From positions 558,001-622,000 of the forward strand of contig JAOVFP010000008.1 in assembly GCA_025738555.1 (NCBI GenBank): a stretch of DNA of 64,000 nt. Direction: 5' to 3'. The notes below the pieces were generated by a model. The model was given only the letters and a program-made list of their open reading frames with translations, ran no database searches and had not been told where the DNA came from. A program made the translations under genes and the position numbers. Shown in pieces: positions 15,086-62,501 of this stretch (positions within the stretch are counted from its first letter, which is position 1; each line of letters opens with the position of its first letter). Source of the stretch: Cyathus striatus (Eukaryota > Basidiomycota > Agaricomycetes > Agaricales > Nidulariaceae).

Positions 15086-15895
15086 TTAACGGAGCTCACG
15101 TGGCAGGTGTAGAGACGCAACGAGGCTAGGATGCTTTCGAATGTAAATTTGAAAAGCATCCGAATTCCAATGTCCAATCTGTTGGATGGCAGAGTACGAG
15201 ATACCATGCTCAGCAAGAGCAGTTGCTCTGCCTGAACGTATGGAGTGACCTGAGTAGGCCAGCCCTGCAAAACGATGGAGAAAGGAGAGAAAGAAAGTAC
15301 GTGAAGGTGGTGACCTATCCGCTCTCAGCCATAAAAGACGGTGGAAAGGGAAACACTCATCACGAGAGTTGAGATAGCGTGTAAAAATGAGATAGGGGTC
15401 TGGTCCCCTAGCAAAGAGCCGCTGGACAATAATAACGTCACCTTGAAAAGTTCTGTCAGCCTTGTGGGTTGGCAAAGTGAATTGATAGACGTCGTTAGGG
15501 TGAAATTTGACAGAGGAACGTGGAGTAAGTTTCCTATAGTCCCGAAGAGCCAAGTCATCCGGAAAAACCAATTCACCAAGATGCATTAGAGCGTAGAAGC
15601 CTGACACGAGAATAGCTAAACAAAGGAGTAGGTCGTGGTCAGTGCCGGGGAAAACGACGTGACAAACTCTGGATAGAAGGTGAAGTGGAAGGGGTGGTTT
15701 ACGGTTTGGATGAGAGAAATGGTGGCGACGACATCCCTGGAGCATATTGCGTACAATCGCAGAATTTCAGACACGTGTAACATCAGGAAAGTAAGGCGAG
15801 AGTAGCTTTACAATTCCAGAGAGGTAGGTGGTGAGAGTTGATGTTGACATGGAGGAGGCCATGAAGACGAGATAAAAGCTAAGAGAATTTTCGGT
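15086..15895 (-). pseudogene. Tyrosine recombinase (YR), catalytic part, of an Ngaro-like element
   Basis: Reads ENSLSFYLVFMASSMSTST, TYLSGI, then a TGA, then the catalytic domain. Active-site pieces: ALMHLGEL (the usual Arg before LGEL is His, CGT to CAT), GHSIRSG (H-x-x-R) and GHWNSDAFQIYIRKHP (second H/W box and the nucleophile Tyr). These are hallmarks of the YR of DIRS/Ngaro elements. The fragment repeats about 15 residues already present at the end of the copy B recombinase fragment (16890-17166), so it is probably from a different element copy. The lost Arg and internal TGA indicate an inactive gene. Confidence 0.8.
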
Positions 15896-15899
15896 TGTA

Positions 15900-16885
15900 A
15901 GAGGTTAGAGATGTTTACAGTGGGGTGATAGTAGCTAGATTATGTAATAATAACTACTTACTCCTAAAACAACGTAACGGGGTGGCGAGTTTGGAGGGAA
16001 TTTCGCAGAAGATCGGTATTAAGGATGCTTCCGGGCAAAAGGGGGTAGAAGGGGGATGTATAGGAAGGTGAAGGACTGTCCAAGTAGTGGGTAGGTAACG
16101 TCTCTGGCTATGTACGATGTAACACGCGATACTCTAGGAGTTTGCGGCTCTTCTTACTAGACTCAAATCAAATCACTTAATCAATAATCTTGGAAAGGTC
16201 ACTTTATTTCACTACACTACGTCAAGGTACTTTATAACGGAAGCTGCGCGGGGGATAGCTTCGTGTACATGGCAAAACTCGTCTACTTTATATACTGCTG
16301 GAAATATGGTGGCTGAAGGTACTGTATAGCTACTGTATAGTTACATTCGGGGTACTAGGCACGGTAAACGACGTCACTGCAAAGGGAAGGCCGTACGCTC
16401 ACGGAGCGTGCTGGATAGGGGTTGAGCGTCTGTCATAGGGAGTTGCGCGACGGAGAATATGGCGCCGCGCGCGTTCCTTCGGTCGATACGGGATTGGCTA
16501 TACGCGGATGTACTAAGAATAGCTCAGGTGTCGATCAGGGTTCAGGGTGCATCACTTAATCTAGCTATGTCTCGCTTTGCCGGTATCTCCGAGAGAAGTT
16601 GATCGGTTGACTCGGGACTTCGGGACTCGCCGAGGCGCCTGGAAAGGCGCCTCGTCATCGCTTGCTTCTCTTGGATATTGATCGCGTCTTGTCACGTGAC
16701 CTTCGCGTGTCGCTAGACGCGTTTCTGGCTGTTATCCATTTAGTCGCTGAGTTTCGCGCCGTCTTTATCTCTCCGCCTCTGTATGCAGTACTACCTTAGG
16801 CTTTATGTTAATAATACCCTTGGTGAGTGTACTTTTTAGTAGTACTATAACTGGCAGCTCGGGTCTCGACTCCAATCCTATGATC
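15900..16885. other. CpG-rich non-coding spacer between two recombinase fragments
   Basis: Visibly richer in CpG than the elements around it (for example GGCGCCGCGCGCG near 16460). Contains a perfect 8-bp-arm hairpin, GAGGCGCC-TGGAAA-GGCGCCTC, at about 16632-16653. No coding frame, no TG..CA ends and no target duplication were found. It may be a regulatory end region of an element or a younger insertion. Confidence 0.45.
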
Positions 16886-16889
16886 TAAC

Positions 16890-17166
16890 CCATGTTTGTT
16901 ACCGTTTGGTGAGTACTCGTATACATAATAGAAAAGCTAAAATCGACTGCTATAGGTAGTGTACGCCCGTCAGGCGTCTCAGTTGGTTCATAGGAGAAAC
17001 CATGTAAGTCGCAGAAGTGTAGAAAAGAATTTAGTGCACTTGAGTAGTTTAGTGCAGTGGACCGATCAATTGTGTATCCCAGCATAATGGCACGCTCTCG
17101 AAGAAGGCGCTCATAGGTCCAGGGAACTCGGTGGGGTTGCCTGGACCTGCGAAAACTGGGGATCAT
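16890..17166 (-). pseudogene. Ngaro-like copy B, tyrosine recombinase N-terminal domain, truncated
   Basis: Starts MIPSFRRSRQPHRVPWTYER and continues with the SAM-like helical N-domain of YRs (TALNYSSALNSFLHFCDLHG, then FSYEPTETPDG). Its start codon overlaps the stop of the RNase H frame as ATGA, a layout suited to coupled or reinitiated translation. The frame ends at a stop (TAG) after TVTNMG, where similarity to YR is lost; the catalytic domain is absent from this copy. Confidence 0.7.
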
Positions 17167-19091
17167 GACAGCAATGCCCCCAATGCATCCTGAGGGGGTG
17201 TAAAATTTTGAAATGAGATGTCAGGATCAAAGAGTAGAGCACGCTGAAAATTTTGGCATGAAAGTGCATCTGCAACATGATTCTGGTCACCTGGGATGTG
17301 AAAAACACATAATTGAAAACTTTCTTTTAGAAGAATGTCGACAGAGAGCTTTAAGAGGTGATTTAGAATTGAGTTAGAGGCTCTGAGGGAGTTAAAGAGT
17401 GCGACCGTGTTTCCACTATCGGAAAAAATGATCACTGTGCGAGTGAAAAGAACTCGAGAGACAAGAAGATCCAAGGCCGAAAAAACTGCAAGAACTTCAT
17501 AGAGAAAAATATCATGTCCTTTGATATTGGGTGGAAATAAAAAGTGATAGCCAACATGAAGAAGACTATCCCATATACCAATACCAGTGAGTGACGCATC
17601 AACATAGAGCGTCGTATCAACGACATCTGGATCCCAAGTGATATCCTCAAGAATGAGGATTTCCAACTCAACACGGAGGTGGTTGAGGAGCCAAGAAAGA
17701 TCTTGTTTGATGTCATTGGTAACATACAGTCATTCCTCCTCGTCAGTGGGACCAGTTGTCTTTAAGTATAGTGCACAGAGACCTGGTCGCAGGAGAGGGA
17801 ACACATTTAAAGCCCAGTTCACCCATCCAGCTAAGCGCTGAAACTCGCGAAGTGATCATTTAATAGTTCCTGGTGCAATGAAATGCTGGATATGCTGAAT
17901 GAGTTCACCTTTTTTCCCTGGTGGCATGGAGATTGTAAGGCGATTGGCATCAACAAGGAAACCAATGATGGTGAGTTGGGACCCATGAAGCTGTTTGTGA
18001 GCTTCGTGGGGAATTCCAAGATCATCCCACAGACAGAGAAGTTTGGTTTGTGAGGATGGAAGAAAACAGTCATATGGTGCATACCAAAGACTCTCAGAAG
18101 CTATCTGTACTCCAAAACAGTCATCTGAGTATTGGAAAACCTCAATCATTAGAATAAATACGGCAATCCAGGTAGCAAAGGCTAGTATGGGGATAAATGT
18201 TGGTGCAGAACCACGCCCACCAAACACGTTACACCAGTCAATATGCCTGTCTCCATTGGGAAAGGTAACCACTTGATACCATTGCCATTCTTTTGCCATA
18301 GGTGCCAGACGGTAGGCACTTTTAACATCTGATTTAAAAAGCACAAGAGATTGGTGTTCACCATAGCGCCTGCGAAGTGCAAGTAGAGAATTGGCAAGGG
18401 GTTTAAGGGAGTCAAGAGGACTGCGCCCCATGATCGCCTCACATGAGACAAGTAAGTTGAGTGCACATTTTCCAGCACTGTGATTCGTAATCATGCGATA
18501 TTCACCTGGATCCGATTTTGGAACAGCATGAATAGGCATAGAAAAGGTGCCCTGCTTGAAAGCAGAGGGGAGAATATTGGAGAAACGACCAAGAGCAACC
18601 TCTTGATCACACTGAGAATATAAGAAAGCCTCTTCATTAGGAGTCTGAGAAGGCCGGTTGCGTGATTCATTATGAGTGAGGGGAAAGTCATCTCTGTGAT
18701 GCGCAAAGGGCCAAAAGCCTTCACGTAAACCGAGACAGAAAGAATCAACAAGTGGCTTGTTGGGGTGAGAAGCTAAGTAGAACTCAAAACGTTCAACTCT
18801 GAGTGGCGTGACAATCTTAAAAATATCAGGATTGTTCCGAATGAGTGAGCATATGAAGGGGTGATTAGAGACCCCAGGCGGAGGACGAGGGAGAGGTGGA
18901 GCATACAAAGTGTATGAGAGTACAGGTGTTAGAGAGAAAGACAAGGGAGAAAAATTTTGCAGTTCACGTAGATAAGAGGGATGAAGCCCAAAAGGAGAAG
19001 TGTCTTCACTTGCAATCTGCCACAGCATGCCCCGATTTGAAACATTTATTACACTTGTGTTGATATCGGCATCAGTTCCCTCAATACCCAC
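17163..19091 (-). pseudogene. Ngaro-like copy B, reverse transcriptase and RNase H
   Basis: Frame from 19091 with RT motif A (LFKSDVKSAYRLAP), the YxDD box FQYSDDCFGV, then RNase H: LYVDASLTGIGIW (first Asp), YEVLAVFSALDL (Glu), IIFSDSGNTVALF (Asp) and GDQNHVADALS (last Asp). All acidic residues are kept. The frame is continuous through both domains except for two TGA codons, at 17856-17858 and 17730-17732. Order gag, RT, RNase H, YR without a methylase-like domain fits Ngaro more than DIRS1. The first ATG at 19091 lies within the end of gag, in another frame. Confidence 0.85.
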
Positions 19092-20694
19092 ATCCAGTGG
19101 ATGAATTGTATTTACGACATATCTCCCTTGACTTCATTCGACCTGAGCTAGTTTTCTCTTGGTGCGTTTGGCCGAGGATGAGATTGTAATCTGCCCCTCC
19201 TGGCGATATGAAGGAGAATTCCATGAGTCAGAAATGTTCAAAGTCACAGAAACAGACATCCCATCTTGTTTCGAGATTGAATCTAGCAGATTGATCGAAC
19301 ACGATGACGAGGATGTCATTGGTAGCTGTGCGGAAAAGTCCAGAGATGTATCGTGTGTACAATGCAAGTTCAAGTCTTCGGTGAGGGAAGGCTCGAAGCA
19401 TTGCCTCAATGGCGAGCTGCCAGGCAGTATGCCATTCACCACTGTTGGTGAGTTTTTTCGCGGAGGAGGTTCCGGGGAGAATGATCTCGAGCTCGCCAAT
19501 ACATTGTGTTCGACTGGTGCTGGCTGAGGTGGCATTGATGCCACTGGAGATGTTACCGAGGTTGATGGCTTTCCCTCATAGAATGTTGTCCCATTCAGAT
19601 TCTGGGAAGTGTGGTATGTTGGATGTGCGGATGACCGAACACTTTGCCTTCGTGATGTCTTGAGCATACTTGTCGAGGAGTCGTTGTGTCTCAACGACAT
19701 CAGGGTGCAGTTTGCTCGTCTCCTCAAGATACTCATTGAACCACAGGAAGTCTTCTTCAGAAACATGTTGTTTCTTGGTGACTCGTGATTCTTCTTCGTC
19801 GTCGGAGTCTCTGTCATGGAAGATAGCTGCTGGTTGTGAGGAATGTCGAGGAGAGGTTGGTCGAGGACGAGGTGAGGGCTTTCCAAACGATTCATTAAGG
19901 AAGGAAGCTCCGATATCTGCAGCTGAGGATTGTCGTTCTTCATGGTTGGTGATCTCAGCCAGATAGGCTGCGAAAACTCGGTCAGCAGGTGAGTCGTCTC
20001 CTGGTTCAAAGGCTGGGAGAAGTTTCCCAAGCGCTGCCAAAGCATACGGCTTGGAGAGCTTTCCATTGTGGACACGTTCAACGAGCTCGTCAAGTTTGTC
20101 GGATAGGTCAGATTCAAATACATAGCCAGAGCCTGGGGGGTGGAGCGACTGGATTGGATGTCGAGACGCTCTTGAAGGCTGAGTTTGAGTCGCTGAAGAA
20201 GCGGGAGCTCGATCTTTGTCTCTGTGAAATGTTGGGGAAGTGTTGGTGAATGAGGCTGGTGGGAAGGTGGAGAAACCAGGCGCTGGAGTAAAGGCAACTG
20301 AGCTGGCGTTGTCTTTTCCAAAGACAGACGTTTCTGCAGAGGAACTGCCAAAGGTTGGTGTTCCGATAGCGGTGGGGATGGTGCCTGGGGGCACTCGTCC
20401 ACCAGATTGAAAGATGCTGGATCTGGCTGTAGGTGAGTGATGAGGGATGGCGCCGGTGGGCGCTCCTCCCCAATCCTCTCCAGCAGTGAAAGTCGTGGTG
20501 CCTTGTGGTGCTCGCGACCCTGACTGCGGAGCTCGTCTGACCGAATCCTTCGACTTCCGAGTCTTGCTACCAGAGGATACGGTTTTTCGCGGGAGTTCTG
20601 TGATGGATGGTCCGTCATCAGGAGCAGATCCTGTGGTTCCTGAAGGGCCAGCATGTGCTCATTGTTCTCCTTCGAGTCTGTCACCATCAGACAT
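19006..20694 (-). pseudogene. Ngaro-like copy B, gag-like protein with CCHC zinc knuckle
   Basis: I choose the ATG at 20694 (MSDGDRLEGEQ) because this frame matches copy A. It runs 562 codons to a stop at 19006-19008, interrupted by TGA at 20659, 19576, 19228, 19081 and 19072 (lower coordinate of each). Landmarks: a Ser/Pro/Gly-rich N-third; SDLSDKLDELVERVHNGKLS; RTSNIPHFPESEWDN; and near the end a retroviral-type zinc knuckle CNKCFKSGHAVADC (CX2CX4HX4C), preceded by CRYQHKC. The knuckle implies nucleic-acid binding in a capsid-like protein. The 517-codon open frame in another register over the same DNA is a shadow. Confidence 0.8.
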
Positions 20695-20699
20695 GTCTA

Positions 20700-23769: not shown

Positions 23770-24440
23770 GGGCAGCAAGAAAATTCCAGGCATGCACAAA
23801 AGTGTGCGTGAGTTGAGCATGCACACTCAGGGTCGAATTTTCATGCTCACCTATTGAGCATGAAAATTCGACCCTGTGCGTGAATATCTTATTTTTGAGC
23901 ATGAATATTCTACACTTGAGCATGAAGAAATTTTAAATGAGCATGATAATAATATCTTATTAAGTTGACATAGTCCTGTATAGTATTTTCTTAAATGGTG
24001 TAAATATAACAGCGTGAAACCCATCACGCTCACATTCAAACTCAATTAAATTGAGCATGAATATGATAATAAATATGTATTTTACATCCACGCTCACTCT
24101 ACAGTAAATATGTGTGAGCGTGAATATGTATATACTAATCTTACAGTAAGTATGCGTGTGTGTGAACTTATTTCACATTCACGCTCACATTCAAAATTTT
24201 AATAGAGTGAGTGTGAGCATGAATATAATACATATCCATGCTCACGCTCACACTTATGGTTGTCTACATTTATATACATTCTCAATTGAAATTGTGCGTG
24301 AGCATAACACTTTTATGTTCACATTGACGTTGACAGTAGATACTATTATTTCTTTTAATTTAACAGCAAGTGTGAGCGTGAATGAGACATCACACTCACA
24401 TATCACACTCACACAATCGATTAGAGGATATATATGAATA
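23770..24440 (+). mobile_element. Left terminal region of the split autonomous MULE
   Basis: Begins GGGCAGCAAGAAAATTCC and continues GCATGCACAAAAGTG, like the left ends of S1 and S2. It carries dispersed GAGCGTGA words in both orientations to about 24425. The transposase gene starts 480 bp further on, in the orientation expected for an element whose left end this is. The flank is TTATTCCAC; I found no matching 9-base repeat at any right end in the window. Confidence 0.7.
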
Positions 24441-24830
24441 GGCCATCGATTCACCATTGCCAGACTGTGGCTTCACATGCTATATGCGAGACATTTCATT
24501 TTACCTGATCTTACTCGTATACATGCATCACGAAGGCCTTCTGCATATCTATAATTAGTGAAAACTAGACTTGTTTTCTATCATCTGATCAGTTGTGTGT
24601 GTGATGATCATGATACCTACCTTATCAAGTAGAATGATTTAATGATAATAAGGTTCCATACAAATCTGATGAATGATTTCAGGTCTGTGGCGTACACAAG
24701 CCACTAAAAATGATAGAAGTTCTGTGCTTTTGAATGTGATCAATATTGTGGCATACATGATACTTTGATGCACATGTTTTGCTTCATTCTATACTGATAT
24801 CGGATAGATATCAGTATTGTATATGCTCCA

Positions 24831-24838
24831 TATATAAG
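24831..24838 (+). promoter_or_regulatory. TATA box of the MULE transposase gene
   Basis: TATATAAG lies 81 bases before the proposed start codon at 24919, with a CT-containing leader and an A-rich ATG context (CTAAAAATGG). Confidence 0.55.
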
Positions 24839-24918
24839 AGAATGAATTTTTGAAATCTTCATCAGACCCTCTGACCTCACACTGTCAAGTTTTCAACCAT
24901 ATCAAACAACAACTAAAA

Positions 24919-26883
24919 ATGGTTCTGGTGAGTTACATGTTTGTTACTAAGTTGGGGGGTTCTTATCCTAATAAAAAATAAAGGGATTCTTCAAGCATAT
25001 GTATGCTTACTTTGTGCCAACTCAGAAGAGAAAGTGCTTGGGTTCACAAGGTACCAGAAGCTCAAGTGAGACTGAGCACCTACCATCCAAAAAGAAGCAA
25101 GTGGACATGCTGGATGATTTAATTTGTGAATATATATTATTATATGATAAAAGTATTCAGTCAATGACAGTTAAATTACAGCAACAGGAAAGAAGAATAA
25201 AATTAAGAATACTAAGCTTAAGCATCAACCAAAATCCTCAAAAAAATACCAGGAAGATAGTGATTCAATGTCTGAGACTGAGCTATATGAGTTGCTTCTT
25301 GCTGCAAAGAAAAAAAAGGCCAATCACAGGAAGGAATTGGCTGATAGTAGCAAAACTGTGAAAGAATTGTATGAGCGTACAGCAGATGGGAATTTCGTTC
25401 TTTGCACTCCTGCTTCTGGTGCAGCTGATACTCCCATGGATATCAATGATAGCAATGACACTGTCAATATTGAAGATTTAAGATCTTGGGATGGCTGGCC
25501 TAATGGTGATTGGGAAGCCAACTATAGTAATCAATTTGTTGATGCCACAAATAATTTGCATGTACACTGGGCAACAAGATTAAGTGGTGGGTATGGAGGT
25601 AGTGCAAAATCAAAACTATGGAGCAATGGGAAATGTGTTATGAAAAGATGTCTGGGTATTATCAAATGTGATAATGATGAGTGTAAAATAAGAACATGCC
25701 CAAAGACAAGAATGCCTGCTCTTACCAAACAACTTAAAGAATCATGTACCTGTGGTGCTAAAAAAATTCATATTGAATGTGGTGTAAATTCTAAAGCATA
25801 TACATGGTCTGGAGGAGTTCATTATGTTAATGGTGGATTTCATACCCATGATAGACCAGGAAACATTATCTCATTACTACCATATGAATTAGAAGATCTT
25901 GGAGATGTTGCTGAAGCACATCCTAATGCAGGACCATTACAGTTTGTTGTTGGGCCTAGGGGAGCTAATGGTCTCCCTGGGAAATCTGTTGCACTTATAT
26001 CAGAGGCTTTAACAAATGCTGACCGAGTAGGATATGAGCTACAGAAATTGAAGGGACAGACAGGAGATGCTGATGATTTTGTAAAGAACTTTGCAAGATT
26101 CGAAGAGGAACACCCTGGATTTATTATATATGAACAGTTTGGACAAGTAACAGTTATCTCAGTACAATCTTCATTTATGGCATCACAGCTCATTAAAGAT
26201 GAGGTAATTGATGGTCCTCTAAATGGTCTTGTTAGTGATGCAGCCCATGGCTGGTGGAAAGACCATAAATCCTTGCTTATTGTCTCTTCTGTATATTCTC
26301 CTGAGCTTAGGCGATGGGTTCCAGGCATTTTCTCATATAGTAATGGAGCATCAGCAAGTCATTATGAGCTACACTTCAGTGCACTATTATATAGTATGAA
26401 GGAGCAGCTTGAAAGAAGGGACATTGAAATTACTGATTCACTATTCTCAGGTGTAAGTATTTCATCTACAATGACTACATTACTTGACTAATTAAATATT
26501 AAAATTAGGTAATGGATTTTAGTGAAGCAGAGCATAAAGGATTTGTTGAAGCATTAGTTAAGTTTTATATTTGACGGAATGATTCTAGATCAGAGGAGGT
26601 TCTTCATGAGGTGGCTACAAATTCACTTCAGGGATGTCAAGAGCATTTTTGTGCTTCCCTTACAAGGGTAAAAAGAAACCATGGAGTTATTAGTCCAGAT
26701 AAAGCAGATATATTTGAGTCACGAGTTTTATCAGCTCTTAGAACAAATGATGCTGTTAAGTTCAAGGAAGAAATATGAATTATTATTCGTGACTTCCCAT
26801 TGGCAGAACTATGGATTAATTGGTATCTTTGAGATAGCATAGCAAAAATGCTATTTACATCACAAAAACGAATGCATCCAGAT
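24919..26883 (+). pseudogene. MULE transposase, N-terminal half (GCM-type zinc finger plus first part of the DDE domain)
   Basis: Start at 24919 (ATG GTT CTG), intron 24928-24983, main exon 24984-26452, intron 26453-26508 (GTAAGT..TTAG), second exon from 26509. Domains: Lys-rich N-terminus; a GCM/WRKY-like zinc finger (CLGIIKCDNDECKIRTCPKT, later CTCGAKKIHIECG and GGFHTH); then the MULE core with LVSDAAHGWW (first catalytic Asp) and VMDFSEAEHKGFVEA (second Asp). Defects: a one-base frame change around 25190-25230 and TGA stops at 26572, 26776 and 26830. Coding similarity ends at QKRMHPD, base 26883, exactly where the minus-strand half at 37860 begins. Third catalytic residue not assigned. Confidence 0.8.
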
Positions 26884-27690
26884 ATGAGAGTGGAGTATCC
26901 AATGTGCGATTTGTGCAGGCTGAGTTCCGAGATGTGATAGAAACTCGATCTTACTGGACAATGTCCAGATCACCATTTATTCCAGCTCATGGGCCATTGC
27001 AACAGCGTCGTTGATAAGTTGTGCAAAAGTAATCATCAACGGAACGTCGGAAACTGGGTGTTGGTCCGACTCGGAATCACGATGGCACGAAATTGTTTGC
27101 CGACCGTCGGGTAACTTGTATTTTATTTGAGAGCATTGGTCGATGGTTGGGGACTTGCGAATCGGTAATCTATGCACCTTAACCTGTGAAATATCGCCGG
27201 CCACTTTTTGGTACAAGTTCCCTGGGGGTGTTAATTACAGTTTAATATAACTGCTTGCTAACTTGCAGCTATTTAGTTGAAAATCAACACTTCCACAGGC
27301 TTCTGCGATCCTGTAAACGATGTTGGGTAAACCAGAGTGATGGAAGCACAGTTGGAATGTAGAATAAAACAAACGGAAGGAGTCAACTTATAAGATAATT
27401 ACAAGTAGGTTCGCCGGTGTAGGATTTTGAAGGTTTCATAAGCGACGTAACATATTATAATGAAATGATTACAAGTTATAATATGCATTATATCTGATAA
27501 AAGACTCACAAGCACTGATTTATAGAGTAAAACATGTCGAGGAGGGCATACTACGTTAGTCACATCATAATCACATTATAACCCAGTACAAGCGCTCATA
27601 ATTGCCTCACTACGTGATATTGAGCTCGTGATAGCTGTAAGGACATTTGAGGACATTTGAGTTTTCCACAGATTTAGTGATGCTATTACT
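26884..27690. other. Sequence beyond the inversion breakpoint; one short unidentified frame
   Basis: From 26884 the sequence is unrelated to transposase. A minus-strand frame at 26977-27216 (79 codons; KVHRLPIRKSPTIDQCSQIK..) has a plausible 3' splice site upstream (ACACCCCCAG at about 27220-27229) and could be an exon of a gene broken by the rearrangement. I do not recognise it. Confidence 0.35.
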
Positions 27691-28770: not shown

Positions 28771-29149
28771 ACTAATTCATTCATTACATCCCTCACATCC
28801 ACACTATCGCAACAGATACGAAGAAATCTACAAGATAATCTACGCAAACAAAACAAAACAGATAACATATACAATTCAGCGTCCCCATCTATCATGCATG
28901 CATGCATTCAATCTTAGTTAAAGCCATAAATGAACATCGATATATAATATTCCCATCAATTAAAAATTCGCAGCAGCCCTCCGCCTTGCCTCCAATACAT
29001 CCTACCCCTCTAGCCCACAATGGCCCAGAAGCACATCCCACATTCCCCCCACCACGCACTCACATTCTCTATGAAATGTTTCGCGGAAGGGGGGACATAG
29101 GCTCCTAGTGAACACGAAGCGGTTGCCTGCGTGAAAGTCGAAGAATCCA
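28771..29149 (-). pseudogene. Fragment of decayed gene P (block Z)
   Basis: On the minus strand this matches the end of the P unit of block Y (46655-46960), including GGATTCTTCGACTTTC. It ends at GAAGAATCCA (29140-29149), one copy of the target duplication of S2; the continuation of the same gene remnant is now at 33447 and below. Product unknown. Confidence 0.6.
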
Positions 29150-31950
29150 GGCAGCAAGAAAATTCCAGGCACACACAAAAGTGAGCATGAGTTGAGCATG
29201 CACGCTCACCTATTGAGCATGAAAATTCGACCCTGTGCGTGATGTGAGCGTGAATATTCTATACATGAGCGTGAATAATCCTTATATGAGCATGAGCCAA
29301 CTGGCTGTCTTATATCAACTACATACTGAATAATTGGCATAGTAAAGCATGTTCTTAATACAATTTGGTATATACTAAGCACTGTAATGTAATAATTGAA
29401 GAACACCAGTGGGTTTTATATATGTTTTCATTGTTATTGTCTTCTTTATGAGTGTATATTGATTTAAAATGTATACCAATGATCCAGAGTGTTTAGATAT
29501 GACTTAGAGTGTATATAAATGATTCAGAGAGTGTAGCAGTAATTCAGACTAACAGTTAAAAATTTATAGAGCTAGAGAATGGTATATATTGAACAGTAGA
29601 AACAGGGGAAGTTTATAATGAAGCAGGGGGCTCAGAAAATTACAGGAAGCTTTACGATGAAGCAGGAAAATTCAGAACAAGGCAGGGGATTCACAGTGAA
29701 GCAGAGACCTTGGGAAATTCAAAATAAAGAATGGGGCTTTACAGCGAAGTAGGGAACTTCAGAACAAGGAAGGGGGCTTAATGACAAAGCAGGGAAATTC
29801 ACAACAAAGCAGGGAGCAATACAGGATAGATCACTACCTATCACACATATTTTCATAGTATAACGGCATGTCAGTTTTATATTTACACTCATGCTCAATG
29901 CCCTTTGATTTGAGCATGAGCATGATAGGTATTCTATCACATTTATAATACTTATTTACACTTGCACTCAATGTCCTTTAACTTGAGTGTGAGCTTGATT
30001 GGCATTTTTACTCATGCTCACAAATATTACACTTGTATTTCACTTAAGCATGAGTGTGATTGGTATTCTTACTCATGCTCACAAATATTACACTTGCATT
30101 CAACTTGAGCATGAGTATAATTGGTATTTCTATTCATGCTCACAAGTATTCCACTCACACTCAATGTCCTGTAACTTGAGCATGAGTGTGGTATTCCTAT
30201 TCATGCTCACAAGTATTACACTCACACTCAATGTCCTTTAACTTGAGCATGAGTATAATTGGTATTCCTATTCATGCTCACAAGTATTACACTCACACTC
30301 AATGTCTTTTAACTTGAGCATGAGTGTGGTATTCCTATTCATGCTCACAAGTATTACACTCATGCTCAATGTCTTTTAACTTGAGCGTGAGTGTGGTATT
30401 CCTATTCACGCTCACAAGTATTACACTCATGCTCAATGTCTTTTAACTTGAGTGTGAGTGTGGTATTCCTATTCACACTCACAAGTATTACACTCATGCT
30501 CAATGCCTTTCAACTTGAGTGTGAGTGTGGTATTCCTATTCACGCTCACAAGTATTACACTCACACTCAATGTCCTTTAACTTGAGTGTGAGTGTGATAT
30601 TCCTATTCATGCTCACAAGTATTACATTCATGCTCAATGTCTTTTAACTTGAGCATGAGCATAATTGGTATTCCTATTCATGCTCACAAGTATTACACTC
30701 ATGCTCAATGTCCTTTAACTTGAGCATGAGTGTGGTATTCCTATTCATGCTCACAAGTATTACACTCACGCTCAATGTCTTTTAACTTGAGCATGAGCAT
30801 AATTGGTATTCCTATTCATGCTCACAAGTATTCCACTCATGCTCAATGTTCTTTAACTTGAGTGTGAGTGTGGTATTCCTATTCACACTCACAAGTATTA
30901 CACTCATGCTCAATGTCCTTTAATTTGAGCATGAGCATAATTGGTATTCCTATTCATGCTCACAAGTATTACACTCACGCTCAATGTCCTTTAACTTGAG
31001 CATGAGTGTGGTATTCCTATTCACACTCACAAGTATTACACTCACACTCAATGTCCTTTAACTTGAGTGTGAGTGTGATATTTCTATTCATGCTCACAAG
31101 TATTACATTCATGCTCAATGTCTTTTAACTTGAGCATGAGCATAATTGGTATTCATATTCACACTCACAAGTATTACACTCATGCTCAATGTCTTTTAAC
31201 TTGAGGATGAGTGTGGTATTCCTATTCATTCTCACAAGTATTACACTCATGCTCAATGTCTTTTAACTTGAGTGTGAGTGTGGTATTTCTATTCATGCTC
31301 ACAAGTATTACATTCATGCTCAATGTCTTTTAAGTTGAGCATGAGCATAATTGGTATTCCTATTCATGCTCACAAGTAATACACTCATGCTCAAAGTCCT
31401 TTAACTTGAGCATGAGCATAATTGGTATTCCTATTCATACTCACAAGTAATAAACTCATGCTCAATGTCTGAGTGTGATTGGTATTCCTATTCATGCTCA
31501 CATATATTACACTTGCAACTTACTTTTCCTCCCATGTGTGAGTGGAGCCAAAATATAAATGTAACATATAATTTTTTTGTGAGCATGAAGTAAAAACTTT
31601 GAGTGTGAGTTGACAGACCTTGAGCATGAGTTGATGACCTTGAGTGTGAAAACTCAGACCCTGTGCATGAATGTATGGACCCTGTGCGTGAGATGTTGAC
31701 CCTGAGCATGAAGTAAAATCTTGATTAGAAACATCACTCACATTCACAATATGACACAGCCATACAACACTAGTATGTACATTTAATTTACACTCTTTTT
31801 GACCCACAAATGGGCCATTTAGAGCTAAAATAAATACCTTGAGTGTGACACGCTCAATCACGCTCACTTTTGAGCATGAAAATTTGGCCTTGAGCATGGC
31901 ATGCTCAATCACGCTCACTTTTGTGCATGCCTGGAATTTTCTATGTGCCC
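29150..31950 (+). mobile_element. S2: satellite-filled non-autonomous MULE (2801 bp), flanks rearranged
   Basis: Left end GGCAGCAAGAAAATTCC, right end TTTTCTATGTGCCC, internal structure as S1 (AGTGTA repeats, GAAGCAGGG repeats, main array). Its left flank is GAAGAATCCA inside gene remnant P. Its right flank is not P but a MGQFW-family fragment. The missing flank, with the same 10 bases in reverse complement, sits at 33438-33447 next to the right end of the split MULE, showing that recombination between the two elements exchanged flanks. Confidence 0.85.
29880..31480 (+). repeat. Main satellite array of S2 (67-71-bp units)
   Basis: About 23 units of the same type as in S1: GAGCATGAGTGTGGTATTCC, TATTCATGCTCACAAGTATT, ACACTCATGCTCAATGTC, TTTTAACTT. 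A second unit form has GAGCATAATTGGTATTCC. Frames here are repeat artefacts. Confidence 0.9.
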
Positions 31951-33447: not shown

Positions 33448-34395
33448 GGGCACATAGAAAATTCTGGGCACACACAAAAGTGAGTGTGATTGAGCATATC
33501 ACGCTCAAGGTATTTATTTTAGCTATAAATGGCCCATTTGTGGGTCAAAAAGAGTGTAAATGAAATGTACATACTAGTGTTTTATCACAGTGTCATATTG
33601 TGAATGTGAGTGATGTTTCTAATCAAGATATGAAGTCAAATCTTGAATAATAATATTTATACTTCATGCACACATCATGCTCAAGATTTTACTTCACACT
33701 CAGGGTCAACATCTCACGCACAGGGTCCATATATTCACACACAGGGTCTGAGTTTTCACACTCAAGGTCATCAACTCACGCTCAAGGTCTGTCAACTCAC
33801 GCTCAAAGTTTTTCCTTCACACTCACAAAAAAATAATATATGTTACATATATATTTTGGCTTCACTTACATGTGGGAGGAAAAGTAAGCTGCAAGTGTAA
33901 TATATGTGAGCATGAATAGGAATACCAATCACACTCAGACATTGAGCATGAGTTTATTACTTGTGAGTGTGAATAGGAATACCAATTATGCTCATGCACA
34001 AGTTAAAGGACATTGAGTGTGAGTGTAATACTTGTGAGCATGAATAGGAATACCACACTCACACACAAGTTAAAAGACATTGAGCATGAGTGTAATACTT
34101 GTGAGTGTGAATAGGAATACCAATTATGCTCACGCTCAAGTTAAAGGACATTGAGTGTGAGTGTAATACTTGTGAGCGTGAATAGGAATACCACACTCAC
34201 ACTCAAGTTAAAAGACATTGAGTGTGAGTGTAATACTTGTGAGCATTAATAGGAATACCAATTATGCTCATGCTCAAGTTAAAGGACATTGAGCATGAGT
34301 GTAATACTTGTGAGCGTGAATAGGAATACCACACTCACACTCAAGTTAAAAGGCATTGAGTGTGAGTGTAATACTTGTGAGCATGAATAGGAATA
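33448..34395 (-). mobile_element. Right terminal region of the split autonomous MULE
   Basis: On the plus strand it begins GGGCACATAGAAAATTC, the right-end sequence of S1 and S4. Going inwards it has the same single-copy stretch as S2/S4 (GGCCCATTTGTGGGTCAAAA), then about seven 67-71-bp satellite units, which stop at 34395. About 280 bp later lies the 3' end of the MULE gene (34674), in the matching orientation. I therefore read it as the right end of the autonomous element and not as a truncated S copy. Confidence 0.7.
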
Positions 34396-34673: not shown

Positions 34674-35640
34674 TTATAAATTACTCACCTCTAAATCACT
34701 ATCATTTCCATTTACATTGGTGTCAAACCAGGTTTCTGGAAGACCATCATATGGATCCCACTTATTTTGTGTAGGACCAACATCAAGACCCCACACATAA
34801 TTTCCAGCCCTTCCAGCTCGAACTGATCTCTCAAACATTCTTCTTTCAAAGTGGCTGAGGCATTCTCTGTCCACATCAGTTGTATGTCCCTTTACCCATA
34901 TATTTTCAGTTTGATATTTCCATGCTGCTTCCAATCCATTGGTACTATCACTACTTTGAATAAGACTGCTTCTTGTTGATGCAATAAAGATAGTGTATGC
35001 ATGAGCCAGAGGTGCTGTTCCAAACCATTGATGGGTTGGTATATCACTTGCACCTGGGACATTGTCTGAAAACCAATGTGCAATCTCTCCTTTTTCCAAA
35101 GGTGTCAAGTCACCAGAGTATGGAACTGTCCCTGCAGGTATGTACTTTTGAATTCCATTTTTTTTCTTGGACATATTTCGGATATATTGGAGGGCTGGTA
35201 TGTCATTGTATTCTTCAATACATTTGTCAAAAGGATCTATAGTTAACAATGCCTTCAAAATTTGAATATGTGGTGTTAAAATCTTAATGGTTTCTTGAGT
35301 GATAGGTATCTTATGGAACTCTACTATAATATCTTCTTCTGTATGAACTTCATGTGCATGTGTCCATTCTCCAAGCTAGAATATAATAAGTATGAAAAGA
35401 TATGTATGTAACTGAATCTTACCCGAATTTTCCTTTGGCTTTCTAAATCTTCCCACAATTCATCAACTATATCTTCCTTATTGATCCAAACTAAAAGTGA
35501 GTCTGGTTCCATATTAGGTGAAAAGCAGCATTCTCTCCAGAATTTGACTCTCCATTGATCTTCATGTGCTATAATTAATCTCACTGGATACCAGAACTTA
35601 TCCACCTGAGCTAGGGCTCCTTTTCCTGACTTATAAAATA
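34674..35640 (-). CDS. MULE-encoded protein, C-terminal exons
   Basis: Two exons. 35640-35388 reads SGKGALAQVDKFWYPVRLII, then AHEDQWRVKFWREC, resembling a small Tudor/PWWP-like barrel. Intron 35387-35377 region to about 35375 (GTAAGATTCAG .. TATTCTAG on the minus strand). The next exon reads LGEWTHAHEVHTEEDIIVEF, then a helical region ending NGNDSDLEVSNL, stop at 34674. The barrel assignment is by residue pattern only. No stops interrupt these exons. The join to the PHD exon upstream is not resolved; at least one intron of 100-150 bp lies between. Confidence 0.55.
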
Positions 35641-35779
35641 TTTAGATATATTGTTAACAATTTACATAGTAGTTATTCACATACATTAGCCACTTGCTAA
35701 GTGGCTTTTGAGAAAACCCCTGACTGATTCAATGACTGTAAGTAATATTAGAATGGGAATTTCATATATTATGAAAATA

Positions 35780-37040
35780 TATACCTTGGGTATTGGAATG
35801 GTGAGAAGGAAAGAGCAGCCTTTGGATATAAACATATATCACAGGTATATTTTGCCTTCTTTGATAGGTCTGATGCCCTTTCATGTCTTTGGCATGCAAC
35901 ATGCATAAAACTTTTACATCTGTTACATTGTATCAATGTAGATCCCTCTTCATCCATATTATTATCTTGCTTTCCACATCTACATTTGAATAGAGAGCTC
36001 TGTTTCTGTTTTTGAGAACTTATAATGGTTTCAAATTCTTTTTCAGATGCTGATGATTCTGGTATACAAATGGTTACTTTCTTCTTAGGCTTTGCAAGCA
36101 CTTGTATTTGACTTTGACTGTCAGATGATAATTCACCCTCACTATTCTTGACTTTATAGGATATATATTCTACTGTTTTTGCATTTAAAGGATCACGAAG
36201 CCAGACTCTGTCATTTGGTGTCATTATGATCAGATCAGATTTTCTGTATGACAATATTGATGCAGTAGAGATTGTATTTAAACCAGAAACTTGGATACCA
36301 TACTGAGAACTTAGGGTTTTAGTTTGCTTCTTAAAAAACTGCTTCTGAGAAGATAGACCACCTCTAAGACAGTAGACAACAGAAGATGTTTTATAACCAC
36401 CTGGAGGGTTTTGAATATTACATCCATGAAGAATATTTTGACTAGAATCAATATCAAGTGGAATGCCATAACTAGCTGTCAAGCCATCATAGTGATATAT
36501 GCCTTCAGATGTTTCATAGCATGTAACAAAATGATTTCTTGACTCTGAATGGAATACATGCCCAACAATATCATAAATCAATCTACTATTTTTATTTTGT
36601 ACTGTACATGGTCTGAGCTCCTTTGGAAATGTCCACAGTTGTTCTGGTTCTGTGGAGGCAGTATTTTCTCCAACATTTAGAATTAAAATTACAGGCAATG
36701 TTAACCAGATATTATATGTCTCATTTTGAGCTCCTGAGCATAAGACTTCTCCTTCACAAACTCGCCAGCAAGTATTTGTTGTTCTAGAAGGATTATTATT
36801 ATTATTTTGTGACTGATGTCTGACCCATAATTCTGCATGACCAAAACAAGATTCTGTATCTGTATCTCTAAGGTCATGATACTTCTGACTCTGAGGTGTT
36901 TCCCTAATTTGCATATGACGACCACCTGTAGATTCACAGCCTTCACAAATATTAAACTGAGCTTCAAGTCGCTCAAAGTATGCATGTGCTAGATATTCTT
37001 CCTCAGTACTTTCTTTTGATACAATTGAATATAGCCAGCC
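35780..37040 (-). CDS. MULE-encoded protein, second half of USP domain and PHD finger
   Basis: Exon starting GWLYSIVSKESTEEEYLAHA at a good 3' splice site (37041). It contains a Cys-pair finger (NICEGCESTGGRH and CWRVCEGEVLC) as in many USPs, then the His box HFVTCYETSEGIYHYDG (His near 36532, Asp near 36487), and a PHD finger: CRC, CNRC, HVAC, CDIC (about 35990-35840). Family knowledge: USP (peptidase C19) enzymes cleave ubiquitin or SUMO-like tags; PHD fingers often read histone tails. The frame is open for about 420 codons without a stop. The exact donor after the PHD finger is uncertain (GTATAT at about 35785). Confidence 0.7.
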
Positions 37041-37098
37041 CTGTTAAATAAATGAGAAGATGAGAAGATAGGAAAATTAGCAAACCAGGACTGCTTAC

Positions 37099-37860
37099 CC
37101 ATGTATCACTACATCTGTATTCATCAACATAGCATAGTTTATTTTTCAATAGATAACTTCGAAATTTATCTCGCTGTGATGATAATTTCTTAACAGATGA
37201 TTCTCCTTCAGGATTAGTTTGAACTTCCGACCAATGATTGAATAATTGTACCAGTTCATAAAATGCTTGTGTTTCACTTTTTGAGACATTGCCATTACAA
37301 GCTGTATGAAAATCACTTTCACATTTTTTAAGAGCAGTGAACAGTAGCTGTAATGATACATCAAGCCAACAGGAGTTGCTTCCCCACTTAAAGCTTGGAG
37401 TTCTCATACTTTCACTACCCACAGGATCTTGATTTTTAACTACTTGATTTGGTACTGTTATTTCCTCATTCACTGCTTTTTTCTCAGTTGTAGCTATAGT
37501 CTCACAAGTTTTTGATTGCTTCTTTGGTTTTCTACTATTCTTATTTGGCTTAGGAATTAACTCTGCAGATGTATCTGGTGGTCTCCCATCATTCTTTTTC
37601 TTTGAGTGATTTCTTCTTGGATCTCTTGATGGTTTTGTCCTACCATACTTCTCTATATTTGCTTTCCAGGGCTCAGGTCTTCCATATTTTATTAATGTTC
37701 CATGTGAAGCAGCCTCATAAATTCTCTCATAGTACTTTGCAACTGCAAACAATCCATGAAGCCCATCAAGAAGGCCATGGTCTTTGCCACCAGCACTGTA
37801 TAACTTCCAATGCATTGCCTCTTCTGCATTTGTAGTAGATGGTATAGAGTCCCATATATC
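37099..37860 (-). CDS. MULE transposase C-terminal part fused in frame to USP Cys box
   Basis: Open from 37860: IWDSIPSTTNAEEAMHWKLY, SAGGKDHGLLDGLHGLFAVA, KYYERIYEAASHG is the conserved C-terminal segment of the transposase. After a Lys/Pro-rich linker the same exon reads PSFKWGSNSCWLDVSLQLLF, the Cys box of a ubiquitin-specific protease (nucleophile Cys near 37370). Exon ends YVDEYRCSDTW at donor GTAAGC (37098); intron 37098-37041 (58 bp). Because transposase and protease share one uninterrupted frame, the fusion is not an annotation artefact. The start of this half coincides with the end of the plus-strand half (26883). Confidence 0.8.
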
Positions 37861-48697: not shown

Positions 48698-50774
48698 GCG
48701 CACATAGAAAATTCCGGGCACACACAAAAGTGAGCATGATTGAGCGTGCCACGCTCAAGGTCAAATTTTCACACACAAAAGTGAGCGTGACTGAGCGTGT
48801 CACACTCAAGGTATTTATTTTAGCTCTAAATGGCCCATTTGTGGGTCAAAAAGAGTGTAAATCAAATGTATATACTAGTGTTGTATCACTGTGTCATATT
48901 GTGAATGTGAGTGATGTTTCTAATCAAGATACAAAGTCAAATCTTGAAGAATAATATTTATACTTCACACTCAAACATGTGTGTGCATGCTCATGTTCAC
49001 ACTCAAGGTGTGAGCATGGATTGAGCATGCATGCACACATCACGCTCAAGATTTTACTTCATGCTCAGGGTCAACATCTCATGCACAGGGTCCATATATT
49101 CACGCACAGGGTCTGAGTTTTCACACTCAAGGTCATCAACTCATGCTCAAGGTCTGTCAACTCACACTCAAAGTTTTTACTTCATGCTCACAAAAAAATT
49201 ATATGTTACATTTATATTTTGGCTTCACTTATATGTGGGAGGAAAAGTAAGCTGCAAGTGTAATATATGTGAGCATGAATAGGAATACCAATCACACTCA
49301 GACATTAAGCATGAGTTTATTACTTGTGAGTGTGAATAGGAATACCAATTATGCTCACGCACAAGTTAAAGGACATTGAGTGTGAGTGTAATACTTGTGA
49401 GCATGAATAGGAATATCACACTCACACTCAAGTTAAAAGATGTTGAGCATGAGTGTAATACTTGTGAGCGTGAATAGGAATACCACACTCACACTCAAGT
49501 TAAAAGACATTGAGCGTGAGTGTAATACTTGTGAGCATGAATAGGAATACCAATTATGCTCACGCTCAAGTTAAAAGACATTGAGTGTGAGTGTAATACT
49601 TGTGAGTGTGAATAGGAATACCAATTATGCTCATGCTCAAGTTAAAAGACATTGAGTGTGAGTGTAATACTTGTGAGCATGAATAGGAATACCAATTATA
49701 CTCATGCTCAAGTTAAAGGACATTGAGCGTGAGTGTAATACTTGTGAGCATAGAAATACCAATTATACTCATGCTCAAGTTGAATGCAAGTGTAATATTT
49801 GTGAGCATGAGTAAGAATACCAATCACACTCATGCTCAAGTGAAATACAAGTGTAATATTTGTGAGCATGAGTAAACATGCCAATCAAGCTCACACTCAA
49901 GTTAAAAGACATTGAGTGCAAGTGTAAATAAGTATTATAAATGTGATAGAATACCTATCATGCTCATGCTCAAATCAAAGGGCATTGAGCATGAGTGTAA
50001 ATATAATACTGACATGCAGTTATACTATGCAAATATATGTGATAGGTAGTAATCTATCCTGTATTGCTCCCTGCTTTGTTGTGAATTTCCCTGCTTTGTT
50101 ATTAAGCCCCCTTCCTTGTTCTGAAGTTCCCTACTTCGCTGTAAAGCCCCATTCTTTGTTTTGAATTTCCCAAGGCCTCTGCTTCACTGTGAATCCCCCT
50201 GCCTTGTTCTGAATTTTCCTGCTTCATTGTAAAGCTTCCTGTAATTTTCTGAGCCCCCTGCTTCATCATAAACTTCCCCTGTTTCTACTGTTCAATATAT
50301 ACCATTCTCTAGCTGTATAAATTTTTAACCGTTAGTCTGAATTACTGCTACACTCTCTGAGTCATTTTTTCAACTTGTAGATCATATGTACACTCTCTGA
50401 ATCATTTATATACACTCTAAGTCATATCTAAACACTCTGGATCATTGGTATACATTTTAAATCAATATACACTCATAAAGAAGACAATAATAATGAAACA
50501 TATATAAAACCCACTGGTGTTCTTCAATTATTACATTACAGTGCTTAGTATATACCAAATTGTATTAAGAACATGCTTTACTATGCCAATTATTCAGTAT
50601 GTAGTTAATATAAGACAGCCAGTTGGCTCATGCTCATATAAGGATTATTCACGCTCATGTATAGAATATTCATGCTCACATCACACACAGGGTTGAATTT
50701 TCACACTCAATAGGTGAGCATGCATGCTCAACTCACGCTCACTTTTGTGCATGCCCAGAATTTTCTTGCTGCCC
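48698..50774 (-). mobile_element. S4: satellite-filled non-autonomous MULE (2077 bp), no target duplication
   Basis: Same structure as S1 and S2 in opposite orientation: GCACATAGAAAATTCCGG at its left, TTTTCTTGCTGCCC at its right. Its left flank is the 5' region of one MGQFW-family gene (compare 48598-48670 with 42130-42215); its right flank begins inside the coding region of another (50775). No direct repeat flanks it, so it is a recombinant between two insertions or the scar of a deletion. Confidence 0.85.
49270..49990 (-). repeat. Main satellite array of S4 (67-71-bp units)
   Basis: About ten units, reverse complement of those in S1 and S2, e.g. AGGAATACCAATTATGCTCA, CGCTCAAGTTAAA, GACATTGAGTGTGAGTG. 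CpG variants as in the other arrays. Confidence 0.9.
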
Positions 50775-59568: not shown

Positions 59569-62501
59569 TCACGACCCCGGAGCCTGAGTAATCCCTGCCT
59601 CTGGCGGGCCAACAACTCCCCTTACACCCCTCTTCGCCGCAGCAGTACACAAAGGCGAAGGCGGCGAAGACGCCGGATCAACCCACGGATCCAAATAGCT
59701 ACACGTCGGAATAGGAACAAACACACCCTGTGCATCCTGTGCATTTGCCCATCCGCTCCCGACATCCACACTCGCCGTCGCGGTAGCTGTAAACGTAGGC
59801 GCAGGTAGAGTGGGTATAGCCCCTGTAGGTGTGTAACTCGGTAACAGCGACACAGCGCCCCCGCTCGATATAGACGTGGGCGGCCATGAAGCGGCGGAAG
59901 AAGCGGAAGCAGGGATGTCGCCGGCACCTGCGCCGCCTGTTTGCCATGCTTGCAGGGGAGGTGCCCAGGGAGCGCTGTTCTGGCATGTACCAATTGCCGC
60001 TCGGGGATCTTTAGGCATCCATCCTTGTTCCAAGCCGAGCTGGTACGACCATGCTGGAGACTCTACTTTGCCCGTAACGCTCGAGTTGCCGATTTTCCAA
60101 GTCCAGAAGAAATAGTCCTATCCTCCAATCAGCACCCACTCCCACCATAGGAGTAAAAAGAAACGAACCTGAAGAGCATCCATACTAGCCAACGCAAAAT
60201 TCATAATATCCCTCTTCATACCCGCATTATAACTCTGCCAATCCGTCCACTCATCACAACTCCCCTGACTACTCGTCACACCAGGAAATGTACCCTCATA
60301 CCGTGTCCCACTACCCACTCCATTCAAGAACAATCCGCAATCAGTGACTGCATTACTCCATTCTCCGGCATTCGTCAATCCGAAATTCGCCATTGAGGTG
60401 TTTACGAGGGAGCCCCATGCATCGCAGGGGGCGGTGGCGTATGTCGACATTGCAGCGTCCGATTGGCCCTGGAAGCACATGTACGGATGCGAATCGAGGG
60501 TGATCCTATCTGCGTTAGGGAAAACGTCGACCCAGGACCTCCGAGGCAGAAACGCATCATGCAACGACACCCAAGGTCCATTCCCTTCCCCGACACCACC
60601 AGCATTCCTTATAATATTATATGCTTCCATCGAAAACCTAGCTATGTTATCCTGTCCGATATTTTGCGCTCTAGGTTCATTAACAATACCAAAGAGAGTA
60701 ACAACATCCTTATACTGAGGCTGCGACACGAATTCAGCTATAATCCTTATATAGTCGAGGGACCGCTGGGCGTTCGCGTAACCCATAGGGCCGTTGAGGA
60801 ATCCGATGGTGCCTAGGCGGCCAGAATGGTTCCATCCGTTTTGGGAGCCGGGGAGGGCGTGGAGATCGAGGTTTATGCGGATGCCGTATTTGCGGGCCCA
60901 GCGGATTGCTTTGAGGAAGTATCTGGGGTGGGGGTTAGTTAAGTTGGTTACGGGAGGAAGAAAGGGAGTGAAGAAGGGGGAGAAGGGGCAGGGACGAAGG
61001 AAAGAGGGAAACGTGAAGAAGGTGGATGAAGGAACCGTGAAAGGAAAGGGACGAAAGTGAAAGTGAAGGGCGGTAGCACGGTAGGAAGGTAGGAGCGGGG
61101 TAAGTTATGCGGAGCAAAGATGGCGCACGAGCGAAGGGGAGGAGGATGATGAGAAACAGTGAGGGTGGTTCAGGGAAAGGAGTAGGTAGAAGAAATATAA
61201 ACGTGAAAGAAAAGAAGTGAGGGAAGTAAAAGAGAAAACGACGTACGTCCATGAAACCTTAGCCAAAAACGGCTCCCCCGCCCATGTCTCAATGGCCCAA
61301 TAACCAATGGGTATACGGACAAAGTTGAGTCCTGCACCTGCGATCTCTGCGAAGTCTTTCTCTGTCTAGATTGAGTATCAGTACGCATTGTATAGGAGTA
61401 TAAGAAGTGAATCAGGGAGGGGAGGAAGAAAGAAACGTACAATGAACGTATTGTAATGGTCCTCTAACTGATTAAGCCCACCACTAGCTGTATCAGCAGC
61501 CATCGCCTCGCTTAATGTCCATTCGTCGACGGCAGGTGTACTTGCGTTCATGTATTTCTCGTATAGAGCGGGTGCACTGCGTGTTGTTAGATTGTATCTT
61601 CAAGTGGAATAGGCAGACGTACATGAACTAGTAAAGCGTCAGTAATAAGAAAAACGGTAGGAAGAATGGAAGACGTACAGGCTCAGTATTCAACCATCCA
61701 CCCAAATTCACTCTACCCAACCAATCAGCCCAACCCCACAAAAAGAAACAAGAAAACAACCCACCCACGCATCTTATCAATCCCGTACCGAAACGTCTCA
61801 TTCAGAGCCGGACTCCAACTCTGTGCCCTCGCACCATTATTAAACGGATCATTCTCATCCCAGTACCAACTCCCCCCGAACGAATTGGAATAAACGAAGG
61901 TAGAGCCGTCGTCCATCGTAACAGTGCTTCCGTCGCCGCCTGTTACTGCGATTTGGGCTTTTGGCGTACTTGATGGCTGCGCCGCGGAGCCTGAAGAGGA
62001 ACCAGAGGTGGAAGAGGAGGAAGAGGGAGATGATGATGTGGAGAGGTTTTTGGGTTTTATGACTTTGAAGTAGACGGGAAGGATTACGGCGAGGATTATA
62101 ACTGCTAAAGCAGCTAGAACGCCTAGAATGATCCATTTCCTCTTCCCTTTCCCTTTCCCTGTTCCACTCCCACTTGCACTTGCACTTACACCCGTAGCAC
62201 GCTTCTCATTGAACGCCTCCGCAGAATCAAAAGGGTTGTTCTGGTAGTTACTATCCGGGCGTTCTCCTGCGCCAGTGAGGGGATTCAAAGCGCGCACGGA
62301 AGAGTTAGGTGTGCCTGGAGCAGTCGTGTTCGAGCTTGACATGAGGGAGTCTCTGATGCCCGGTGAGCCGGGGTCGGTGTAGAGTGCTGCGCCCATGAAG
62401 CGCGGTTGGGCGTGTGTGGCGCCTGTAGGGAGGAAGGGGAGGGCATCGGGGTCGTCTGGGAGGGAGGGGTGTGTTGATGCCGGGGTGAAGTATGTTGACA
62501 T
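59569..62501 (-). CDS. Glucan 1,3-beta-glucosidase, GH5, membrane-anchored
   Basis: Seven exons on the minus strand: 62501-61765, 61712-61679, 61627-61623, 61576-61441, 61365-61247, 60922-60169, 60117-59569; 777 residues, all phases consistent, all introns GT..AG. A cytoplasmic N-terminus of about 120 residues, a single membrane helix (WIILGVLAALAVIILAVILP, near 123-147), a Ser-rich linker, then the GH5 domain. Acid/base Glu426 is in LFGIVNEPRAQ; nucleophile Glu531 is in NAGEWSNAVTDC. SHPYMCF and LHALPGSQNGWNHSG are further landmarks. Family role: trimming beta-1,3-glucan in the cell wall as a type II membrane or shed enzyme. An extended C-terminal Ala/Pro-rich tail ends in PGS. Intact gene. 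Confidence 0.92.
61623..61627 (-). other. Five-base micro-exon of the GH5 gene
   Basis: TTCAT lies between TTTACTAG and GTACGTCTG. With it the protein reads LNTEPFIAPALYEKY, the conserved GH5 sequence; without it either frame or the PFI residues are lost. Flanking introns are 51 and 46 bases. Confidence 0.75.

Follow-up and report, generated by a model that had tools for sequence, protein, structure and literature searches.

We report here that a stretch of 64,000 nucleotides from Cyathus striatus (assembly GCA_025738555.1, contig JAOVFP010000008.1, C8:558001-622000; hereafter the window) contains a transposon gene in which a transposase is fused to a deubiquitinase-type protease and a PHD finger. 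An initial annotation, made from the letters alone, had described this fusion at positions 34674-37860; the observation is confirmed, and its interpretation, as a fungal parallel to the proteases of plant Mutator-like elements (MULEs), is supported. From predicted domains and conserved motifs, the protein would run in the order GCM-type zinc domain, DDE transposase, basic linker, USP-fold isopeptidase, PHD finger, SH3-like barrel and conserved C-terminal domain. The element is probably an autonomous transposon of the Mutator/Rehavkus assemblage, encoding one protein of ~1,600 residues that would cut the element ends, dock on chromatin and remove a protein tag, with escape from silencing or turnover as the outcome. 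The architecture is real, ancient and widespread and, as far as could be seen, new within the known theme of transposons with tag-removing proteases.

The part of the gene that joins transposase to protease lies on the minus strand and reads as initially annotated. Exon 37854-37099 (756 nt, translated frame) carries the transposase C-terminus, a basic linker with DGRPPDT and the start of the USP-like domain, and is open throughout from WDSIPSTTNAEEA (the transposase glutamate motif, reading STTNAEEA) to the Cys box FKWGSNSCWLDVSLQLLF (reading NSCWLDVSLQLLF). An intron of exactly 58 nt with GT..AG borders follows (37098-37041), then an exon with the Cys pairs, the His box NHFVTCY..GIYHYDG and the PHD finger (37040-35785), and then the Tudor/PWWP-like, SH3-barrel-like exon (35629/30-35423). 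The USP-fold domain, its fold predicted for a relative (P0029), spans 37395-36297 and is interrupted by the intron. Conservation in an alignment of relatives (A4) places the catalytic Cys codon at 37371-37369 (in NSCWLD), the His codon at 36533-36531 (in NHFVT) and the third catalytic residue, the Asp of YDG, at 36488-36486. The domain closes with LRGG (36368-36357), which is L-x-G-G in most relatives according to subfamily and relative alignments, and the PHD finger occupies about 35990-35826. Comparison of three subfamilies defines a conserved C-terminal domain at 35375-34689, and the last exon (34634-34524) ends in the stop codon. All three subfamilies keep the C-terminal domain well; Pfam has no match for the piece in which it lies. 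The DGRPPDT of the linker is strongly conserved among the relatives in A4.

Transposase and protease are joined at many loci; separate genes in relatives, joined at this locus alone, would have been a refutation according to the initial annotation. Protein searches of the genome (107 Mb, 24 contigs) returned at least 70 matches with the 363-residue protease domain and at least 58 with the N-terminal transposase, each set merging to 48 loci. In 42 of the 48 transposase loci a protease domain follows on the same strand at most 6 kb downstream, in 36 of these at 892-1257 bases. This leaves six loci of each kind, protease and transposase, without a partner; one of each is a half of the window copy, which appears to be split by an inversion and is unpaired for that reason. 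Two further subfamilies in the genome, which are 41 and 38% identical to the window copy in the 969 C-terminal residues, both keep the Cys box, His box, LRGG, PHD finger, barrel and C-terminal domain in the same order, key residues included. A profile of the three subfamilies found 76 proteins among 3153 candidates, and two from the first search brought the set to 78. The four relatives placed by taxonomy belong to four orders of Agaricomycetes, and the recognised named relatives among the 76 are all from mushroom-forming fungi. Intact relatives include P0006 of Panaeolus cyanescens and P0010 of Agrocybe pediades. Because the two subfamilies and the relatives in other fungi keep order and key residues, the arrangement is more than chance. 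In 12 of the 78 proteins the strict patterns of all four parts (DDE, Cys box, PHD and barrel) are present, always in the order DDE, USP, PHD; many of these 78 predictions are incomplete or wrongly spliced, and such pattern counts are probably under-counts.

The fusion appears to be old and to have been maintained. Trees of the transposase and of the protease, built for 22 proteins and two sequences of this genome (24 in all), correlate with r 0.73, a value reached by 0 of 2000 permutations, and have 9 of 21 splits in common; this agreement points to one old fusion. The protease domain diverges faster, with a mean tree distance of 2.51 against 1.43 for the transposase. Between the window copy and its sister copy L010 (about 92-93% identical) the ratio of nonsynonymous to synonymous substitution rates (dN/dS) is 0.40 in the C-terminal part of the transposase; the two USP exons have 0.18 and 0.30, and the linker plus PHD finger 0.16. 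The module was thus under constraint as long as the family was active.

We identify the second domain as a protease because of the predicted fold of a relative and the conserved triad. The structure predicted for P0029, a check of the kind that the initial annotation had proposed for the window copy, is a clear USP fold, and Foldseek ranks human USPL1, a SUMO protease, first. In a viral structure library there were 13 matches at E<=0.001, several annotated giant-virus USPs among them. No ULP1/C48 chain occurs among the fold matches listed, which show USP folds with confidence; an unlisted fold is not thereby excluded. The catalytic Cys is present in 55 of the 55 A4 rows with a letter at that position and the His in 60 of 60, and the third position is Asp in 56 of 60 rows and Asn in the other four, leaving a triad that is intact in effectively every aligned row.

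USPs contact ubiquitin through the motifs QQDAxEF and GGHY. Neither pattern occurs in any of the 180 proteins scanned (78 found via the protease region and 102 via the transposase). With USP fold and triad but without these motifs, we describe the domain as having a USP fold and do not file it as a canonical USP. The helix that we equate, by position only, with the QQDAxEF helix carries a near-invariant Trp (56 of 59 rows). In USPL1, according to PMC8983731, Phe replaces the Tyr that follows the active His in ubiquitin USPs, Phe also replaces the Glu that holds ubiquitin Arg72, and the blocking loops are absent. The residue after the active His is Phe in 50 of 60 A4 rows and in all three subfamilies of this genome. 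In the P0029 model a link of five residues, the last of them the His, connects strand 502-513 to strand 519-524. Because Phe follows the active His as in USPL1, SUMO would be the likelier substrate, although we hold this at about even chances, and ubiquitin as the substrate is possible but less probable.

Behind the protease, the PHD finger of the window copy is a weak Pfam match (E 4.5e-4, below cut-off) with the C4HC3 zinc pattern, and profile A3, built from 36 relatives, matches Bye1 in the PDB at E 4.7e-11. Pfam finds the PHD finger above cut-off in P0001 and in two of six full-length relatives (P0005 and P0006) and has no PHD match in P0009. The cage position of the window copy is Phe, not Trp. 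The putative barrel has five predicted strands (residues 783-842 of the P0029 model), an assignment made from these strands and the subfamily comparison; its strict pattern occurs in 25 of the 78 proteins.

The N-terminal part of the transposase lies apart from the rest, on the plus strand, in exons 24919-24927, 24984-25050, 25182-26452 and 26509-26885, the last with three in-frame TGA codons. A GCM/WRKY-GCM1-type zinc domain at 25487-25858 is indicated by profile and by fold: the family profile A6 matches mGCM1 in the PDB at E 1.3e-5, and a model of relative P0081 matches 1odh at E 3.1e-7. The second catalytic Asp motif, VMDFSEAE, is at 26509-26532, and the first, SDAAHGWW, is in the preceding exon. 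Among the matches listed, the predicted fold of the DDE core is nearest to the ISCth4 transposase, consistent with a predicted RNase H-like DDE core. No solved MULE or Rehavkus structure is among the listed fold matches, an absence that is uninformative.

Terminal repeats and target duplications are those expected of such an element in two places. The element ends start with GGGCAGCAA or GGGCACATA, followed by GAAAATTCYRGGCAYRCACAAAAGTG; eight such ends lie in the window (chance mean 0.00), and with at most three mismatches the pattern has 338 matches in the genome (179 + 159) and 0 for a reversed control. A terminal inverted repeat lies on the outer side of the 5' half (23770-23804, plus strand, GGGCAGCAAGAAAATTCCAGGCATGCACAAAAGTG) and another, of the GGGCACATA type, on the outer side of the 3' half (33448-33482, minus strand). 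A gene-bearing copy at C1:7816123-7826996, its transposase part interrupted, has the 9-bp duplication ATATGAATG on both sides, and a short window element, alpha (9703-11865), has the perfect 9-bp duplication TGTGCTGGT. Flanks of three other assumed end pairs in the window show no matching duplication. Among the end places listed, many opposite ends are separated by ~1-6 kb, and many of the copies are therefore likely to be non-autonomous. Directly 3' of the gene, at 33937-34395, repeat search shows a 67-bp minisatellite with a double unit of 138 bp in 3.3 copies; arrays also stand 3' of the gene in L008 and L010, and the third subfamily has a 125-bp array of 2.2 copies there. No minisatellite was found in L042, which covers about 1 kb past the gene of the second subfamily.

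Our reading joins these computed features (domain order and its conservation among fungi, catalytic residues that are intact, selection that preceded decay, and the inverted repeats with 9-bp duplications) to roles that we infer for the GCM/DDE, PHD/barrel and USP-like parts. The element would be a cut-and-paste DNA transposon, of which the window stretch is one piece. Its GCM domain and DDE core would bind and cut the element ends, and the PHD finger and barrel would anchor the protein to the chromatin of the host. The USP-like domain would remove a ubiquitin-like tag, SUMO sooner than ubiquitin, either from proteins of chromatin or repair in the neighbourhood of the element or from its own transposase, and the element could in this way escape tag-dependent silencing or turnover. 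A bolder version, in which a USP was made into the element's own SUMO protease independently of plant ULP1 and from another fold, is tethered by PHD and Tudor modules, undoes SUMO silencing, and is timed by self-cleavage or self-inhibition at LxGG, is a long shot.

Several results weigh against this reading. In the Pfam search that the initial annotation had suggested, the PHD finger came up weakly; UCH/C19 was not found in the window copy, nothing matched the protease domain even at E<=10, and the MULE profile PF10551 had no match at these loci at E<=1, a missed profile being no proof of difference. Elsewhere in the genome Pfam MULE matches two other loci only, both below cut-off. Among 108 matches to the transposase search, a precomputed MULE domain is present in none and GCM in six. 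In the genome search the UCH and C98 profiles had no match at these loci; UCH does match host USP genes elsewhere, which shows that this search works, and C98 (PF15499) matched nothing in the genome at E<=10. With the same limit of E<=10, profile A5 matched none of the USP chains of the PDB, and profile A2 reached USP54 at only E 0.27. VIA-align ranks USP18, USP30 and USP46 over USPL1, the best by 1.8 Z units. The residue after the active His is Tyr in 9 and Trp in 1 of the 60 rows. The strict patterns for the Cys box and PHD finger occur in 58 and 31 of the 78 proteins. Against the recent copies L007-L009, dN/dS ranges from 0.41 to 2.99 or is undefined, with 1 to 12 changes per comparison, and stops are present in two of the three; these comparisons look relaxed, with too few changes to say more.

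Among the other explanations, an ordinary deubiquitinase deserves most attention. Such an enzyme would strip ubiquitin, for example from histone H2B or from the transposase, sparing the latter the proteasome, and the likeness to USPL1 would be shared divergence. The missing QQDAxEF and GGHY patterns in the 78 proteins, the prevalent Phe after the active His and the first rank of USPL1 in Foldseek speak against it, and we consider it a minority possibility. A non-catalytic scaffold, like the pseudo-USP of Pan2, is harder still to reconcile with the data and appears quite improbable, since Cys, His and Asp/Asn are kept in effectively all rows although the domain diverges faster than the transposase. 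Most improbable of all is the chance uptake, in the manner of Pack-MULEs, of a piece of a host protease gene that plays no part in the element. MULEs do take up gene pieces, and the plant KI-MULE carries its ULP domain in reverse orientation (PMC2528002). Here, however, frame and order are the same in three subfamilies and in other fungi, selection was purifying, the protease co-diverges with the transposase, and 42 of 48 transposase loci have the protease domain.

The LxGG that closes the protease domain resembles the tail of ubiquitin. In A4 the L is conserved in 57 of 59 rows and the two glycines in 54 and 59 of 60, the residue after L varies (Arg in 34 of 59), and a Gln stands four positions beyond the motif in 59 of 59. 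Papain-like proteases of nidoviruses use LXGG as self-processing sites, and the enzyme might similarly cut its own chain after GG, freeing the transposase-protease half from the PHD half. The conservation of L and GG around a variable residue, as expected of P3, would fit, and so would the place of the site, which in each of this genome's three subfamilies lies between protease and chromatin module. Yet the P0029 model shows, with high confidence and at a position normal for a USP fold, that the last strand closes with this motif and passes directly into a helix; P0016, P0017, P0022, P0035, P0042 and P0043 lack the first G; and the motif is ubiquitin-like in a domain that looks like a SUMO protease. 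A structural strand-to-helix turn, which explains the motif, is the likeliest reading of the model. Self-processing we regard as unlikely; LxGG might also act as a pseudo-substrate, less probably than as a turn.

Judged by their features, the closest known transposons are the Rehavkus elements. These are MULE-like, encode a PHD finger, carry a minisatellite ahead of the 3' repeat, make 9-bp duplications and are described from insects and annelids only (PMC6446971). The present element shares the MULE-related DDE, the PHD finger in the transposase, the minisatellite before the 3' inverted repeat and the 9-bp target duplication. It differs in occurring in Agaricomycetes and in carrying a GCM zinc domain and a USP-fold protease. 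The main text of PMC6446971 contains neither the word protease nor the word peptidase, and none of the 108 transposase-search matches is named Rehavkus. Plant MULE and CACTA elements, such as KI-MULE, carry ULP1, in reverse orientation in KI-MULE and in both orientations in melon and rice (PMC2528002); ULP1 is of the C48 class (PMC8983731). These too are transposons with a protease for ubiquitin-like tags, but here the protease has a USP fold, lies in the transposase's own reading frame and is accompanied by chromatin readers. Human USPL1, a SUMO isopeptidase of peptidase family C98 (PMC8983731), is the best Foldseek match and shares the Cys-His-Asp triad and the Phe after the active His, whereas identity is 12-14%, the C98 profile has no match, and the domain is here joined to a transposase. 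The VTD deubiquitinases travel with Helitrons and also occur in herpesviruses, and in Agaricomycetes they are fused to an RBR ligase (PMC9741609). They are likewise isopeptidases spread by transposons, Agaricomycetes included, but of another protease class and on a rolling-circle element; the word PHD is absent from the main text of PMC9741609. The initial annotation knew of no description of this architecture, and we found none among the matches listed in the open-licence literature, a WRKY-GCM1 survey and a KDZ transposon paper lying outside that scope.

If our reading is right, the element would be a further independent case after ULP1 (PMC2528002) and VTD (PMC9741609) and a strong sign that DNA transposons need the removal of SUMO or ubiquitin, a need that becomes testable in a single polypeptide. 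With this protein the element seems to be equipped to edit tags by itself, on the chromatin of its host or on its own protein. Mushroom proteins now named hypothetical or PHD-type also gain a domain-level description.

The window copy itself is broken. Close copies on C5, C11, C1 and C15 are 92-99% identical to the query stretch, and alignment to sister copies places the 5' (N-terminal transposase) half at 24694-26885 on the plus strand, whereas the 3' half is on the minus strand and starts at 37860. The two halves are contiguous in L008 and L010 and meet at the same element point, with a five-base overlap in L008 that we take to reveal an inversion spanning about 11 kb. Position 37860, the start given in the initial annotation, would then be a rearrangement breakpoint in this assembly; an assembly error may be the alternative. 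The splice acceptor ahead of the Tudor-like exon differs from that of L010, and because of this altered acceptor and the three TGA codons in the 5' half the window copy is dead. The in-frame stops at 26509-26885 are all TGA; in some sister copies Arg or Gln stands at these places, a pattern that would agree with decay at CpG. In L007 (C5:1355500-1365400) a left-type element end lies inside the gene at plus-strand position 5646, and the absent N-terminal part reappears past a right-type end at C5:1365650; the likely cause is a nested insertion.

We rejected the window as a single element: the flanks of the ends at 23770 and 33448 differ. Those of the ends at 29149 and 33448 are reverse complements (GAAGAATCC). 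Together, this mismatch and this complementarity imply more than one rearrangement, and we claim no pairing of the ends. The flanks at 29149 and 33448 look as if inversions between inverted minisatellite arrays had swapped ends. Shorter stretches within the same terminal repeats lie at 9703-11865, 29149-31950 and 48698-50774 and have no match in the transposase or protease searches. Elsewhere in the window, judged by eye, frames for a reverse transcriptase, RNase H and a tyrosine recombinase-like protein at 15089-20696 (minus strand) recall a DIRS-type element, and frames at 60121-62513 (minus strand) resemble a membrane-anchored GH5 exo-glucanase.
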